Part shown: positions 3,972 to 12,062 of the stretch, piece after piece
Layout: every line of letters begins with the position of its first letter
How positions within the stretch are numbered: the first letter of the stretch is position 1
Assembly: GCA_016932965.1 (NCBI GenBank)
Contig: JAFGBW010000245.1
Span: forward strand, 1-14,774
Direction of reading: 5' to 3'
DNA: 14,774 nt
From: Candidatus Auribacterota bacterium
GTDB lineage: Bacteria > Auribacterota > JAFGBW01
Program-made: the position numbers and the translations under genes
Notes under the pieces: model-generated
The model's input: the letters and a program-made list of their open reading frames with translations, nothing else
What the model was told of the DNA's origin: nothing
Databases searched by the model: none

Positions 3972-4907
3972 TCAAAACCGGTATCCTGCAGAGGCAGAAA
4001 AATTTTTCTGTGTGCTTTCTATCTCATGATCAATGGTCCAGAATGAGCCGTAAGATTCGCCATCGTAAACGGTGTCTTTTTCCGTGCCTTCGGCGCTGAA
4101 TTTCAACTGATCTATTTGAAGGACAATGAACCATTTTTCATTGAATTCATAACGTCCCTGCAGGAATAAACGGGTGGCGTCTCCGTCGGCATCTGTTTTT
4201 GCGAGGATATAGCGAAGCTTATGATCATCTTTATCGGTTATTCCGGCATTGGGGGAATAAGCCAGGCCGGCTGTGACGGAAAATTTATTGCCGGTGAATT
4301 TTCCTTTTGCTTCCAGGTAAAACATATTGAGAACGGACTCGTAGGAAATAACCGTATGAGTCGTATCGGTGTAATGCTCCTCCCACGGTGCTGAAGGATA
4401 CCACTGGTCAAGGTTGGAGGCGTCCCAGGAATACTTCTGATGTAAATAGCCTGCCCCCAGCGCCAGATGGAAATGTTTTGGCAGTTCGAACCAGTAAGCC
4501 CCCGACACATCGACCGTATTTCCTGAGAAATCCGTATCAGAGGTGGAAAAAACGTCCAGGCGTCCCGGGGAAAGCCAGTCTGAATCCTTGAGCTTTCCGG
4601 CTTCAGACGAAAGATTCATGGTTATGTCAATTTTTGCTTCAATATTTTTTTTGAAGCGAAAATCAAATCCGATATTTCCGTTCCAGATTTCAAGCGGAAA
4701 GGAAAGCTCGCTCAAGGGAAAATGCTGTTCGTATGAATACCATCCCATTATCGTCGTGGTGCCGCCGATCTGGTAGGTGACATCGCCGGACATTTTTCCT
4801 ATTGTGCCTGTCAATTCAAACTGGAAGGTCTTATCCGGGGCGGCAGAGAGGAACCCTGATAAAAACAGCAGCAGGAAAAAAACAGATCCTTTTCTGAAAT
4901 TTCTCAT
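3972..4907 (-). CDS. Omptin-family outer-membrane aspartyl protease
   Basis: A 311-residue exported beta-barrel. A signal peptide covers about 1-23 (MRNFRKGSVFFLLLFLSGFL, then an Ala-Ala site), and the chain ends in GYRF, the terminal aromatic used for barrel assembly. It follows the OmpT/Pla layout segment by segment: PLSELSF (like SQLDWKF), DSDW at 108-111 (like DQDW), GAGYLHQKYSW at 151-161 (like AGYQESRYSF), YSPNAGITDKDDH ending at 229 (like the NDEH segment). The four catalytic residues of omptins (Asp83, Asp85, Asp210, His212 in mature OmpT) have visible equivalents Asp108, Asp110, Asp227 and His229, so it should be an active surface endopeptidase. Which substrates it cuts is unknown. 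AAGGAG six bases before the ATG supports the start. It is transcribed alone and flanked by two related repeats, suggesting it is an accessory gene. Confidence 0.85.
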   Translation of the reverse strand: MRNFRKGSVFFLLLFLSGFLSAAPDKTFQFELTGTIGKMSGDVTYQIGGTTTIMGWYSYEQHFPLSELSFPLEIWNGNIGFDFRFKKNIEAKIDITMNLSSEAGKLKDSDWLSPGRLDVFSTSDTDFSGNTVDVSGAYWFELPKHFHLALGAGYLHQKYSWDASNLDQWYPSAPWEEHYTDTTHTVISYESVLNMFYLEAKGKFTGNKFSVTAGLAYSPNAGITDKDDHKLRYILAKTDADGDATRLFLQGRYEFNEKWFIVLQIDQLKFSAEGTEKDTVYDGESYGSFWTIDHEIESTQKNFSASAGYRF

Positions 4908-6718: not shown

Positions 6719-6958
6719 TCATGATTTGATTTCGCTGACATCATTTAAGCTCTGACAAAAAGGACAGCGGACGATGTTTTCGCTTCTATTGTATAAAAAT
6801 GACTGAAAACAGATGGAACAGGTCAGGGTGTCCTTTGATTCAGGTTTCGTGGAAAGGGTTTGATTTTTATATTCCATGCTCAGCCAGAGGATGAAAATGA
6901 CCATGATAGGGATCATGAGATACAGAAAAAACGCAGTTGAGAAAGACACCAGGATCAT
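6719..6958 (-). CDS. Membrane-anchored zinc-ribbon miniprotein
   Basis: A 79-residue protein: an N-terminal membrane helix (about 5-27, ending IFILWLSMEY), a short linker, then a single zinc-ribbon with CSIC (47-50) and CPFC (65-68). With a basic linker and no signal cleavage site, the ribbon probably faces the cytoplasm. Its ATG overlaps the stop of the tonB-like gene (ATGA), making it the last member of the TPR-exbB-exbD-tonB unit. No named family came to mind. A metal-binding adaptor for the motor is a guess from position only. Confidence 0.75.
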   Translation of the reverse strand: MILVSFSTAFFLYLMIPIMVIFILWLSMEYKNQTLSTKPESKDTLTCSICFQSFLYNRSENIVRCPFCQSLNDVSEIKS

Positions 6959-7698
6959 TCGTTTTCCTCCATGGAATGGATGATGAATCTGCCCCTGAAG
7001 CTGATCTTCCTGTTTTTTAGAGGTAAAATCGTGGATTGAAACGATCTCAGTATTTTCTGATCAAAGGCAGAATCACCGGAAGATTGATCAATCTGACAGT
7101 GAAGGATTTCGTTCTTGTCTGAAAATGAGACTAAAATGACAAGGGGGGACGAAGAAGAGGCTTTTAATTTTATTATTTTGTTCCTTAAGAAAGCGAATTT
7201 GTCCTCGATCTCAGTTTTATTTCTGCCCTGATATTCCATCCTGTATCTGAAAGGGATTTTCATTTCCGATTTATCCTCGGTCAGGGGAAAAGGCCTATAC
7301 AGGGCAATCTGATTTTCCTCCAACGGAAGAAACCGTTCCGCATTCAGTTCCGGTTCAAAGTAATAGGCTTCTTCGGCAATCATTTTTTCCGCTTCCTTGA
7401 AATATTCGTCTCCTTCAACGGGTGCAAAGCCACGTATCTGGTTGACATGAAAAAACATCTTCTCTTTAAAGCCTGCATTGCTTTCAGGCAGGGAGATAAA
7501 CGATGGGGCTGCTATCGGTTTGTCGGTCGTGAATGCTTTCGGTGCAATCCGTTCCTGAAAATCCTGAAGAAGGGAAACTTCGGTGATGGATAGCTCCTGA
7601 ACGACAGGAGTCCGGATCGAAATGATCATCATTCCGAAAGCATGTAATCCCAATGCCAGCAGGAGACAGAAGGAGAAAATGCGGTTTTCCCATTTCAT
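6955..7698 (-). CDS. TonB-like energy transducer
   Basis: A 247-residue protein with one N-terminal membrane anchor (about 7-27) and a large periplasmic part. The anchor holds a His (His19, in LALGLHAFG) where E. coli TonB has its essential His20. The C-terminus (about 190-245) fits the TonB C-terminal fold: ILVSFSDKNEILHCQIDQSS, GDSAFDQKIL, then a final strand. It lacks the usual Pro/Lys-rich spacer; the middle is acidic and ordinary in composition. It should transmit ExbBD-derived force to an outer-membrane or periplasmic partner. I use the ATG at 7698, one base after the exbD stop, with AGAGGAAA upstream. A TTG at 7740 would overlap exbD and add 14 basic residues. TolA-like function is an alternative. 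Confidence 0.75.
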   Translation of the reverse strand: MKWENRIFSFCLLLALGLHAFGMMIISIRTPVVQELSITEVSLLQDFQERIAPKAFTTDKPIAAPSFISLPESNAGFKEKMFFHVNQIRGFAPVEGDEYFKEAEKMIAEEAYYFEPELNAERFLPLEENQIALYRPFPLTEDKSEMKIPFRYRMEYQGRNKTEIEDKFAFLRNKIIKLKASSSSPLVILVSFSDKNEILHCQIDQSSGDSAFDQKILRSFQSTILPLKNRKISFRGRFIIHSMEENE

Positions 7699-7699
7699 T

Positions 7700-8116
7700 T
7701 TATTGATGTTTTTCCTCTTTAAAACGGGTGGCGATGGCAAAACGGCTCAGATTGTTGTTTTTCGCGATGCTCATGATTTCAACTACCTTGCTGTGCCGGA
7801 TATTACCGTCAGCCTTGATCACAATCATCGTTTGAGGATCTACCTTTGAAAGTGAGCGGAATTTCAGCTTCAATTCATCCAGGGTGATGCGGTTTGTATC
7901 GTAAAAAAGCAGTCCTTCCTGCGTGAGGCTGATCTCGACGCTTTTTTCCTTTTGGTTTTCGATCACGGAAGCCTGGGGAAGATTCACTTTGATTCCGGGT
8001 TGAATCATGAAAGAAGAGGAGAGTAAAAAGAAAATATTCAGCAAAAAAACCATGTCGATCATGGGCGTCAGGTCTAGGCCTGCCTGAATATGGAACTTTC
8101 TCTTTATGCGTTTCAT
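7700..8116 (-). CDS. exbD: ExbD/TolR-family proton-channel subunit
   Basis: A 138-residue inner-membrane protein: short basic cytoplasmic N-terminus, one membrane helix (about 18-37) beginning DLTPMIDMVFLLNIFF, and a periplasmic domain to the end. Asp21 in PMIDMVF is the conserved proton-carrying aspartate of ExbD/TolR. With ExbB it forms the proton-driven motor that energises the TonB-like protein encoded next. A 56-base gap separates it from exbB. That gap holds a 13-codon minus-strand mini-frame whose stop (TAA) lies one base before the exbD ATG, which could couple translation since the ATG has no clear Shine-Dalgarno of its own. ExbD and TolR cannot be separated by sequence here; the TonB-like neighbour favours ExbD. 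Confidence 0.9.
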   Translation of the reverse strand: MKRIKRKFHIQAGLDLTPMIDMVFLLNIFFLLSSSFMIQPGIKVNLPQASVIENQKEKSVEISLTQEGLLFYDTNRITLDELKLKFRSLSKVDPQTMIVIKADGNIRHSKVVEIMSIAKNNNLSRFAIATRFKEEKHQ

Positions 8117-8172
8117 GTTAGTTCATGGGAAAATCATTCAGTTTTATTGCCTGATTCATAAGGATTCAGTCT

Positions 8173-8862
8173 TCACCCGCGTTTGTGACGGCCCGGTGTG
8201 TAGGCTTGAGTCATTTTCTGTCCCTCTAAGGCGAGTTCGTTTTCTTTTTTTATCTCTTCAATGAGCTCGAGTATTTCCGTGGAAGACCGTTCGATCTGGA
8301 CAGAAAAAATGTCTATTCTTGCCACCGTAAAGCTGTATGCCAGAAAAGAGGGAATGGCGACTGTCAAGCCCGCTGCGGTTGTGATCAGAGCCACGGAAAT
8401 GCCTCCGGCCAGATCCGTTGGATTGACAATTCCCGCCTTGGTCTGAATCACTCTGAAACATTCGATCATACCCAGAACCGTGCCCAATAATCCCAGCAAA
8501 GGGGCAATGTGCGCTGAGATGGATAAAAGCTGAACGTTTCTTTCCAGACGAGGCATCTCATGTGTGATGCTGTTCTCAATCGACTCCTTGATGAGTTCCC
8601 TGTTTTCATCATGTTTGATGATCCCGTTTTTTAATACTGCAGCTACGGGTCCCGGGGAATCCGAACACAAGGTAATGGCCTCGACCCATCGCCGGCTCCT
8701 CATGAGTTCGCAAAGTTTTTTCATGAAAGGATCCAGGTTCAATGAAGCTCTTTTGAAATGATACAGCCGTTCGAAGAAAACCGCGCAGCTCACAATCGAA
8801 CAGAGTACAATGGGATACATGAGAGGGCCGCCCTTTATAAATAATTCGATGAAGGTATTCAT
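8173..8862 (-). CDS. exbB: ExbB/TolQ/MotA-family proton-channel subunit
   Basis: A 229-residue inner-membrane protein with three helices (about 13-32, 116-138, 158-182), the ExbB/TolQ arrangement with a large cytoplasmic loop between helices one and two. Family motifs are visible: APLLGLLGTVLGMI (120-133) and ALITTAAGLTVAIPS (158-172), the latter holding the threonines that line the proton path. It forms the oligomeric channel around ExbD. Its ATG overlaps the stop of the TPR gene as ATGA, so the motor is translated together with the TPR protein. The tail (TPGRHKRG) is basic and cytoplasmic. Confidence 0.9.
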   Translation of the reverse strand: MNTFIELFIKGGPLMYPIVLCSIVSCAVFFERLYHFKRASLNLDPFMKKLCELMRSRRWVEAITLCSDSPGPVAAVLKNGIIKHDENRELIKESIENSITHEMPRLERNVQLLSISAHIAPLLGLLGTVLGMIECFRVIQTKAGIVNPTDLAGGISVALITTAAGLTVAIPSFLAYSFTVARIDIFSVQIERSSTEILELIEEIKKENELALEGQKMTQAYTPGRHKRG

Positions 8863-11336
8863 GGACCTTCCTTTCCTCGGTAAAGATAAAACTTTAATTT
8901 TCGTATGCGATACCGCAAATCTTCTTTATTCACTTTTTTTCCTTCCTGAAGCAGTTTTTTCAGCAAGGGGATCGCCTTGGCATATTCCTTTTTTTCTTCA
9001 TAACGTTCCACACAGAAAAAGATCGCTTCGGCCATGATGTCTTCAGTGCATTCATCATAAATGACCTTTAATCCCACATCAAGTGCTTTCTCGGATTCTC
9101 CGGAGAGGTGAAGACACTTCGCCTGCTTTATTAGCAGAGCGTGATTGTTTTTCTTCGATTCTGTCAGATACAGTCGGTTGGCTTTTTCATAATAGATCGA
9201 GGCATTTTTATATTCTTCTGTTTTTTGAAACAACTCAGCGAGGTACTCAAAGGCATTTCTTCGCAAATAGGAATCTTCGTAAGCAGTCTCGAAAACGATG
9301 AAGCTGTCGATGGCGTTCTCAAATTCACCGAGCTTGTCATACGATTCTCCTGTTAAAAAATAAGCGTCGGGAATCAGGTCGGAAGAGGGTAAATTCCGGA
9401 TCAAACGGGACAAAAACGAGATGGCCTGTTCATACTGGCCAAGACGGAATGATGATTTTCCGGCCAGATAAAGGCTGTTGTCCATGAGATCGGATTGAGG
9501 ATATTGAGCAATCAGATTTTGAAAATGCTCAAGCGATTTCGCATCGTTCTCATGGTTGTATTCATATTCTCCCAGCCAGAATTCCACCTGGGGGGCCAGT
9601 TCAGAAGAACCATACTGCTTCAGGAAAGAGGTGAAAAGTTTCACGGCCTTGTCCTCTTGTTTGGAGAGGAAATAACACCAACCCATGAAATAGAACGCCT
9701 GCTGACGGATGATCCGGTTTTTTACCGATACCAGGACTTTTTCGTAATCGTTCAATGCTTCTTCGTATTGACCCATGTTGTAATGACAATTTCCGGTCTC
9801 CAGTCTGGCGTAATCGGAGAAATTGCCTTTAGGAAATTGTTCAACAGACTTCCGGAAAAAGGAAAGCGCTTCCTCATATTTTCCCTTTTCATACAGCAGT
9901 CTTCCGCTCCGCCATAATGCTTCCTCGATAAAATGACTATGAGGACAGTCCTCACAAAGCGTTTTCCATGAGGTTATGGCCTCTTCGTTATGCCTTAATT
10001 TTTGATGGATCATGCCGAGCTTGAATAAGGCTTCGTCTTTGCGTTCCGACAACGGATAGCGTTTCAGAAAAGCCCGGAATAAATTGAGCCCCTCCGAATA
10101 ATGTTTCAATAGATACAGACAGTTCCCAGTCATCAGCCAGGCTTCCAGAGTGAACTTATGGTCCAGATTCATTTTCAGGGCTTTTTTGAACCGAAGAAAA
10201 GCTTCCCTGATATTCCCCGATTCGAAATAGACCCAGCCCAGTCCGTATACACCGTATAATTCATTGATCATGTCCTCGTCTTTCAAAAGGATCAGCTTAT
10301 GATAAATGGAAATGGCCTGCTCCATCTTTTTTTGACGGTAATATGCTTCCCCCAGCCAATAAAGGCTTTTAAAGTAGATTTCATTATTCACAGGTTTTTC
10401 AGTCAATTCCAGAAGGAGTTTTTCCGCACCGGCATAGTCATTCAGCTGAAGATGCGTCTGGCCCAGCATCAGATCAGCCACTTCCCAGTTCTTTGCAAAA
10501 GGAAATTGCCGGAGATACCGTTGAAGCAGATCTTGCGCCTGACGGTATTTTTTGAGGTTCCAATAACTCAGACAAAGGCCGAACAAGGCCTCCTGTTTTC
10601 CTGTGTCCGTCACTTTCGGTTCTTCGTAAACGCTCAAAAAACGCTTTTGTCCGGAAAGATAATCTTTTTCATCCAAAAACAGCCGCCCTGACAGGAGATT
10701 GGCTTTTTCTTTCAAAAGAGGTGCAAGATCCACGGTCAACTCCACTAATTTTAAAAGATTTTGAGCTTGTTTGAGCTTCCCCTGCTGAAGCATGCATTCC
10801 ATCAACAATAGCTGAAAATGCGATTTTTCGTTTTCATTTTCACAGTGTTGGATCTGATCATTCAGATAGCTTTCAGCAAGCTGGTATTTTTTATTTTCCG
10901 TATAGGAATCAATCAGGAGCTCCAGGGCCGTGTATTTTTTTGATTGTGGACAATCCATCTTCCAGATCATGTTCAGCGTTTTTTCAGCGAGATAATAGTC
11001 GGATTTTCCCAGAAAGATGTTCATCTTGAGCAGAAATACATCAAAGGAGTTCAGAAATGAATTTTTCTGGATCAGAAGCTTATCCAGCCATTTTTCCGCT
11101 TGTTTCCAGTTTTTTTGACGATAAGCTGAAAAGGCGAGCAAAAGAGCTCCTTCCTGTGAAAGCTTGTCATTCAAGGTGTTTTCATTGTGCAGATGGGATA
11201 ATTTCTGTTCCACCACCTGATAGAACTCATCATAGTAAGCTTTTTTGGCCAGATTGAGATCGGATTCCGTTATGGTGAAGCCTTCCAGGGAAAGAGAAAA
11301 TAAAATGATTAAATGAGCGGTAAAATTCATTTTCAT
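8859..11336 (-). CDS. Large secreted TPR-repeat protein of an ExbBD/TonB operon
   Basis: An 825-residue protein with an N-terminal signal-like segment (MNFTAHLIILFSLSLEGFTI) and then tetratricopeptide repeats almost end to end (about 35-810). Clear examples include the segments starting WLMTGNCLYLLKHYSEGLNL, ALFKLGMIHQKLRHNEEAIT, ALWRSGRLLYEKGKYEEALS and AYFLTGESYDKLGEFENAID. Such arrays are scaffolds for protein partners. Export suggests a periplasmic role, comparable in place to the TPR protein CpoB/YbgF of Tol-Pal loci but much longer. It is first in the operon and overlaps exbB (ATGA). I chose the ATG at 11336 because earlier codons fall inside the promoter. ATG at 11330 is equally possible. 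No enzymatic motif is seen. The partner, cargo or receptor is not in the window. Confidence 0.85.
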   Translation of the reverse strand: MKMNFTAHLIILFSLSLEGFTITESDLNLAKKAYYDEFYQVVEQKLSHLHNENTLNDKLSQEGALLLAFSAYRQKNWKQAEKWLDKLLIQKNSFLNSFDVFLLKMNIFLGKSDYYLAEKTLNMIWKMDCPQSKKYTALELLIDSYTENKKYQLAESYLNDQIQHCENENEKSHFQLLLMECMLQQGKLKQAQNLLKLVELTVDLAPLLKEKANLLSGRLFLDEKDYLSGQKRFLSVYEEPKVTDTGKQEALFGLCLSYWNLKKYRQAQDLLQRYLRQFPFAKNWEVADLMLGQTHLQLNDYAGAEKLLLELTEKPVNNEIYFKSLYWLGEAYYRQKKMEQAISIYHKLILLKDEDMINELYGVYGLGWVYFESGNIREAFLRFKKALKMNLDHKFTLEAWLMTGNCLYLLKHYSEGLNLFRAFLKRYPLSERKDEALFKLGMIHQKLRHNEEAITSWKTLCEDCPHSHFIEEALWRSGRLLYEKGKYEEALSFFRKSVEQFPKGNFSDYARLETGNCHYNMGQYEEALNDYEKVLVSVKNRIIRQQAFYFMGWCYFLSKQEDKAVKLFTSFLKQYGSSELAPQVEFWLGEYEYNHENDAKSLEHFQNLIAQYPQSDLMDNSLYLAGKSSFRLGQYEQAISFLSRLIRNLPSSDLIPDAYFLTGESYDKLGEFENAIDSFIVFETAYEDSYLRRNAFEYLAELFQKTEEYKNASIYYEKANRLYLTESKKNNHALLIKQAKCLHLSGESEKALDVGLKVIYDECTEDIMAEAIFFCVERYEEKKEYAKAIPLLKKLLQEGKKVNKEDLRYRIRKLKFYLYRGKEGP

Positions 11337-11354: not shown

Positions 11355-11383
11355 AGTATAAGCTTTCAATGAGTGAATATCAA
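11355..11383 (-). promoter_or_regulatory. Promoter of the TPR-exbB-exbD-tonB operon
   Basis: TTGATA (11378-11383) and TATACT (11355-11360) on the minus strand are exactly 17 bp apart. Predicted transcription starts only about a dozen bases before the ATG at 11336, with no Shine-Dalgarno between. It lies in the 93-base gap shared with the divergent secreted-protein gene, so the two may be coregulated. Confidence 0.6.
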
Positions 11384-11429
11384 GTGTAATGCTTTGGTTG
11401 ATAATTGGTTACAGAGAGATGGTACATCA

Positions 11430-12062
11430 ATGAGGTTCTTTACCTTTTGTGTTTTTTTTATGACTATTTTTTCGCCTTGCAGCAGTCCTGCCAAAGCAGA
11501 GATACCCATGGGAGCCAATAAATACTCAACGTTAAGGATAGAATATTCCATTTTAGGAGAACATCAGAAAGGCCAGGAAATTTTTATTCAGAAAAACGGT
11601 AAAACTTACAGGGAAGTCAACATCCTTACCAAGGTTTTAAGAAAAGAATACACTGAACACACCATTGAAATTGACGACGGAACCTATTTTTACAGAATCA
11701 ATCTGGTGGATAAAACAGGTATGAAATTGCCTTCCATCAACCGGATTAAAAGACAGATGGTTGAGAACAATCCTCATTTATTCGGCAAGGGTAAGCTGAA
11801 TCCCTTGAGTATTTCTCCTCCGCAGGGATTACTAAAAAAAACCGAAAACATTCTGGGCAGAGAGTGCCGCATCTATCTGCATCATAATCAGATGATTTAT
11901 ATATGGGATGAGATCATCCTGAGAGAAATAAACGATGTTTTCGGAAAAACCGTCAAAGAAGCAAAGAAACTGGATTTGAATATTCCGATCGAAGAGACCT
12001 TTTTCAGCGTGCCTGAAGGGATCCATTTTTTCGATTCTGTTCAGAGTTATCTTCCCTCATGA
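11430..12062 (+). CDS. Secreted hypothetical protein, divergent from the TPR operon
   Basis: A 210-residue protein with a signal peptide (MRFFTFCVFFMTIFSP then CSSPAKA, cleavage after AKA) and a beta-rich periplasmic domain of about 180 residues. It holds ILGEHQKGQEIFIQKNGKTY, REVNILTKVLRK, a central ILGRECRIYLHHNQMIYIWD and a terminal FSVPEGIHFF. The alternation of short strands and the closing VPEG loosely recall DUF4412-type envelope proteins, but I do not claim membership. I chose the ATG at 11430 because of the signal peptide and GAGAG upstream; an in-frame GTG at 11373 would bury it. The sole complete plus-strand gene here, it shares its upstream region with the TPR operon. After its TGA the same frame stays open with a membrane helix (see 12063-12263). 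Confidence 0.75.
   Translation: MRFFTFCVFFMTIFSPCSSPAKAEIPMGANKYSTLRIEYSILGEHQKGQEIFIQKNGKTYREVNILTKVLRKEYTEHTIEIDDGTYFYRINLVDKTGMKLPSINRIKRQMVENNPHLFGKGKLNPLSISPPQGLLKKTENILGRECRIYLHHNQMIYIWDEIILREINDVFGKTVKEAKKLDLNIPIEETFFSVPEGIHFFDSVQSYLPS

Follow-up and report, generated by a model that had tools for sequence, protein, structure and literature searches.

The window, as we call the whole 14,774-nucleotide stretch analysed here from a Candidatus Auribacterota bacterium, carries a conserved five-gene operon that runs on the minus strand from 11336 to 6719 in the order TPR protein, ExbB, ExbD, TonB-like protein and a small membrane zinc ribbon (ZnR). The transduction of proton-driven force to the outer membrane is best known from two well-studied systems. 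We estimate a probability of roughly 0.5 that this operon is a third, dedicated force module of the Ton/Tol superfamily which has a TPR solenoid as its partner and stands apart from both receptor-serving Ton and Tol-Pal. The features are listed below, with the evidence for each in parentheses.

8859..11336, minus strand: TPR solenoid protein, exported, 825 aa (Pfam TPR families, AF2)
8173..8862, minus strand: ExbB/TolQ-type proton-channel subunit, 229 aa (PF01618, E 4.9e-31; ExbB tree)
7700..8116, minus strand: ExbD/TolR-type subunit, 138 aa (PF02472, E 1.1e-27; motif table)
6955..7698, minus strand: TonB/TolA-like force transducer, 247 aa (alignment, AF2, VIA)
6719..6958, minus strand: membrane zinc ribbon ZnR, 79 aa (conserved family, invariant Cys, charge analysis)
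11355..11383, minus strand: promoter-like site TTGATA-17-TATACT, 5' of the operon (10/12 match; not above chance)

Operon layout and encoded proteins

The initial annotation had the gene content, strand, order and outer coordinates (6719-11336) right, as well as a 1-bp gap, which lies between ExbD and the TonB-like gene. It had also counted three ATGA overlaps, and here it needs correcting, as there are two such 4-bp overlaps in the operon, TPR/ExbB and TonB-like/ZnR. ExbB and ExbD are 56 bp apart, ATG 8116 being the earliest possible start in the ExbD frame, and the third overlap is therefore absent. The promoter-like site is located 19 bp 5' of the TPR start and matches at 10 of 12 positions; however, promoter and terminator scans of the window found such sites no more frequently than expected by chance (from shuffled sequence for the promoter scan), and an Rfam search returned no match. 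On the opposite strand, a divergent gene (11373-12062, plus) encodes a secreted protein of 229 aa without a Pfam match. It was considered as a sixth component and rejected since its homologs adjoin the operon in just two further loci (L027 and L030). The window also encodes an omptin-like outer-membrane protein (3972-4907, minus; PF01278, E 1.3e-12).

ExbB and ExbD both exceeded their Pfam cut-offs, and ExbD retains the transmembrane Asp (LTPMIDMVFLL), consistent with the proton channel expected of a Ton system. Against the NCBIfam models, ExbB scored best with TolQ (TIGR02796, 94.5 bits, below the cut-off of 221) and ExbD with TolR, again below the cut-off. In some relatives the proton-binding Asp of ExbD is replaced, by Asn in L029, L052, L204 and L207 and by Thr in L209, and L211 has no recognisable Asp at this site; in those genomes, the motor may have a different mode of action or be non-functional.

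The C terminus of the TonB-like protein remained under the Pfam cut-off (PF13103, E 0.038), and the alignment exhibited a near-invariant His in its transmembrane helix. In the AF2 model, built from 13 sequences, residues 3-28 formed a confidently predicted transmembrane helix, followed by a disordered linker and, at moderate confidence, an H-E-E-H-E domain at the C terminus; the model thus has the N-terminal helix and TonB-fold C-terminal domain of a Ton transducer. A Foldseek search with this model gave no match at E under 0.001, so the fold assignment depends on the consistency of the VIA rows. In a second look with VIA, each of the top 22 rows (Z 7.9 to 4.9) was a TonB C-terminal domain or TolA-III, with unrelated chains starting at Z 4.4; TolA-III (Z 7.9) was a slightly closer match than TonB. 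Predicted structure thereby rescues the assignment, and in the model the C-terminal domain of the transducer has the TolA/TonB fold. This domain is missing from several orthologous transducers. Proteins of 136-154 aa were observed between ExbD and ZnR in seven loci (L056:7355-7774, L202:7261-7686, L205:7536-7949, L207:1446-1856, L210:2588-3052, L213:7049-7513 and L214:7148-7609); these have an N-terminal transmembrane helix, in most cases of the SxxxH type, and their length apparently leaves no room for both a linker and a TonB-type C-terminal domain. Together with the Asn and Thr substitutions in ExbD, the transducers lacking the domain indicate that the machine is not uniform.

The TPR protein matched Pfam TPR families and exceeded the cut-off of the generic ybgF model of NCBIfam. 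In its AF2 model (mean pLDDT 85.8), a long series of helical hairpins spans approximately residues 131-819. The N terminus is hydrophobic and without a lipobox, suggesting that the protein is probably periplasmic; its orthologs have Sec-like signals as read by eye. Although the model resembles many unrelated TPR solenoids, for example the Campylobacter periplasmic flagellar scaffold 9hmf_K, this is a common architecture and was not counted as evidence. Among 29 genomes tested, the ortholog (E 1e-34 or better) was found only in those with a whole or partial operon, and the same restriction held for matches at E 1e-15 or better. A wide gap separated the ortholog from the next TPR match, and in every operon-bearing relative the best match to the window TPR protein was the operon gene. 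By these sequence comparisons, the TPR gene tracks the operon as a specific ortholog.

ZnR consists of a single transmembrane helix followed by CxxC...CxxC, and the four Cys are invariant across the family, which predicts a zinc binder. Positive charges follow the helix in 48 of 50 family members, and by the positive-inside rule the ribbon is predicted to face the cytoplasm. For the window ZnR, no Pfam family, zinc ribbon families included, was over the cut-off, and the best Pfam match among 15 members, ranked by E-value, was PF02150 (E 1.3e-5). No match to any described family was found. The initial annotation had remarked that a zinc ribbon is not known as a part of Ton or Tol systems, and in the open-licence literature searched none was indeed described, nor did we find there a description of this five-gene set.

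Distribution of the gene set and the ExbB tree

Profile searches detected ZnR in 27 of the 44 searched genomes of the window's phylum and in 15 of 340 outside it. Within the phylum, 14 loci, window included, unite ExbB, ExbD, the TonB-like ORF and ZnR, with the TPR gene upstream in 13; in the remaining genome (G026) a different contig carries the TPR match. Outside the phylum, where the 15 independent loci were selected on ZnR alone, ExbB/ExbD were within 7 kb of ZnR in 11, order and strand were kept in 10 of these 11, and a TPR match was upstream in 7 of the 15. A scan of the genome contigs with the single ExbB protein gave no match, but the ExbB alignment as query did. This search is a sample of matches which yields no prevalence; among the matches listed, at least nine loci also carry ZnR (two in Omnitrophota, one in Hydrogenedentota, four in Verrucomicrobiota, one in Lentisphaerota and one in a further bacterium). 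The recurrence of the five-gene order in many genomes rules out chance, and the neighbourhood check proposed with the initial annotation thus came out in its favor, with the set recurring in the phylum and in several others and the TPR gene tracking the operon.

The TonB-like and ZnR genes were also found together away from ExbB (L028, L031 and L045). Conversely, families f8, f9 and f11 have no TonB-like gene at this locus: their orthologous ExbB-ExbD pair is followed by a large gene, read as dnaE-like, and no ZnR was found in their genomes. From this sequence record, ZnR is a genuine, conserved protein family whose occurrence is linked to the TonB-like gene. In G005 (L040:10802-11720), the ORF after ExbB encodes a TonB-type transmembrane helix fused to ZnR, and no ExbD match was present in the locus; the fusion and the missing ExbD may be an assembly fault. 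In one genus (family f3; L032, L044 and L046-L051), ZnR adjoins genes read as an MlaE/MlaF-like ABC transporter, with no ExbB near ZnR. Genes read from the sequence as guaB-like, guaA-like or dnaE-like were observed 3' of ZnR in L027, L029, L034, L036, L040, L055, L059 and L065, spanning several families and phyla.

A quick tree of 131 ExbB rows placed the ZnR-linked ExbBs and their ZnR-less orthologs, with one exception, in one group of 54 rows (support 93, 2 changes). The TolQ rows and the second ExbB of the host fell outside this group, and its sister comprised clusters from Ignavibacteriota and Bacteroidota. That second ExbB (L143:163-1829, G000:C239) is beside a 328-aa TonB/TolA-like protein at a contig edge.

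Possible clients and competing explanations

No receptor gene is present inside the window operon. Six operon genomes (G004, G011, G013, G019, G022 and G026) gave zero matches to Plug and zero to the PF00593 barrel; their completeness ranges from 74 to 96 percent (G013 74%, G022 81%), and since most of the genomes are incomplete MAGs, the lack of a detected receptor carries less weight in these. In the window's own genome Plug was matched 16 times, and a receptor-serving role is therefore possible in that organism. TolB and Pal are missing from the window operon, and relatives have a separate tolQRAB-pal-ybgF cluster elsewhere (L147-L151; identified from position, size and sequence reading), while in the host Pal and YbgF are encoded on contig C19. 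The six receptor-less genomes and the separate tol-pal cluster of relatives suggest that neither classical client explains the gene set across genomes.

The initial annotation had described the operon as receptor-free, which is true of the window set and does not extend to some homologous clusters. A protein with a mostly LPEFVITG-like N-terminal motif is encoded between TPR and ExbB in L027:8411-9946, L060:6563-8272 and L201:5534-6943, and a protein of this type occupies the same position in L061, L069, L098, L130, L075 and L172; in the Ignavibacteriota and Bacteroidota clusters of the sister ExbB group it has 526-574 aa. Our reading is that of a plugless barrel carrying a segment like a TonB box, and the copy in G012 (L027), which matched PF00593 without a plug, is the one that Pfam supports. 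Clusters with this barrel-like protein were found in Ignavibacteriota, a Cyclobacteriaceae genome, G012, G049 and G167. The TPR-barrel-ExbB-ExbD-TonB clusters (Ignavibacteriota, Cyclobacteriaceae and G049, in whose stretch no ExbD match was found) share with the operon the upstream TPR gene, the ExbB-ExbD-TonB order and the sister ExbB group; they differ in the extra protein taken as an outer-membrane barrel and in having no detected ZnR.

In a mechanism that we consider plausible, inferring those steps that go beyond gene content and fold, ExbB and ExbD would form a rotary proton channel in the inner membrane, on which the TonB/TolA-like protein would dock via its SxxxH-type transmembrane helix to move force into the periplasm. 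The physiological partner of the transducer would be the long periplasmic TPR solenoid and not a TonB-dependent receptor, and the TPR protein would hand the force on to a complex located in the outer membrane or bound to peptidoglycan, for housekeeping envelope maintenance. ZnR would be next to the transducer and hold its metal ribbon on the cytoplasmic side, most likely serving motor assembly or gating. We hypothesize, with the initial annotation, that the TPR array may replace a receptor or Pal/CpoB. Its suggestion of a dedicated envelope machine holds to the extent that TonB-dependent receptors and Tol-Pal fail to explain the set across genomes, but TPR proteins are not new to Ton operons, TtpD2 being an earlier case (PMC6957404). 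The reading as a dedicated module is favored by the conserved order, the TPR ortholog tracking the operon, the TolA/TonB fold, the receptor-less genomes, the separate tol-pal and the ExbB grouping, and also by the positive-inside pattern of ZnR, the joint absence of the TonB-like and ZnR genes in f8, f9 and f11, and the G005 fusion. The Plug matches of the host, the barrel-bearing homologous clusters, the non-uniform ExbD proteins and transducers, and the incomplete MAGs count against it.

TtpD2 is a 425-aa TPR protein essential to TonB2-dependent siderophore use in Vibrio, where it belongs to the Ton operon (PMC6957404), and by analogy our operon could be an accessory Ton system energizing TonB-dependent receptors encoded elsewhere, with its TPR protein acting like TtpD2. 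The 16 Plug matches, the barrel-like protein with its LPEFVITG-type motif in homologous clusters, the proton channel subunits and a transducer of TonB/TolA fold built from transmembrane helix, linker and C-terminal domain are all in keeping with Ton. However, the operon adds an exported TPR solenoid and ZnR to ExbB-ExbD-TonB and persists in the six genomes without a detected receptor, its TPR protein is twice as long as TtpD2 and first in order, neither TtpB nor TtpC is encoded, and several orthologous transducers lack the C-terminal domain for gripping a TonB box. We consider this explanation rather unlikely. A variant of Tol-Pal that constricts the outer membrane during cell division, with the TPR protein standing in for CpoB, would account for the best scores against TolQ and TolR models (though below cut-off), for a C-terminal domain slightly nearer to TolA-III, and for a TPR relative of CpoB over the generic ybgF cut-off. 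The missing TolB and Pal, the complete separate tol-pal of relatives, the Pal and YbgF on contig C19, and the position of TolQ outside the ZnR-linked ExbB group make such a variant improbable.

It is less probable still that the genes are a conserved housekeeping cluster which forms no single physical complex and in which ZnR has an unrelated role. The MlaE-MlaF-like neighbors of ZnR in genus f3, where no ExbB is nearby, and the frequent adjacency of the set to guaB, guaA or dnaE agree with this, but not the tight gene overlaps, the tracking of the operon by the TPR ortholog, or the joint absence of the ZnR and TonB-like genes. Proton motors with TPR partners have been described in the PVC group, where TPR genes are beside TolQ-type motors with vWA transducers in TPR-TolQ-TolR-TolR-vWA clusters, and roles in motility or macromolecule uptake were suggested (PMC12204202). 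The operon resembles these clusters in its TPR gene beside a TolQ-type motor and comes from the same broad bacterial group; it differs in having a transducer of TolA/TonB fold instead of vWA, one ExbD, and ZnR. A motor for surface motility or macromolecule uptake, like that of Myxococcus gliding (AglRQS) or the vWA-type TPR motors, is highly improbable here, as the operon has no vWA, adhesin or motility gene. A possible link to Akkermansia mucin uptake (Mul1A) was dropped after no tie to the operon was found in the open literature searched.

Significance for poorly studied phyla

Extending the preferred reading of a dedicated module, we tentatively propose, while regarding it as somewhat doubtful, that Verrucomicrobiota, Lentisphaerota, Omnitrophota, Hydrogenedentota and the window's phylum have a third Ton/Tol class which pulls a TPR solenoid, for which the TonB-fold domain is dispensable, and which the membrane-bound ZnR controls from the cytoplasm. 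A third module with a TPR partner and a zinc ribbon, kept also in genomes where no TonB-dependent receptor was detected, would mean that the motor serves a further core client in envelope-bearing phyla that have been little studied, and the operon gives genes of unknown function in those phyla a testable context.
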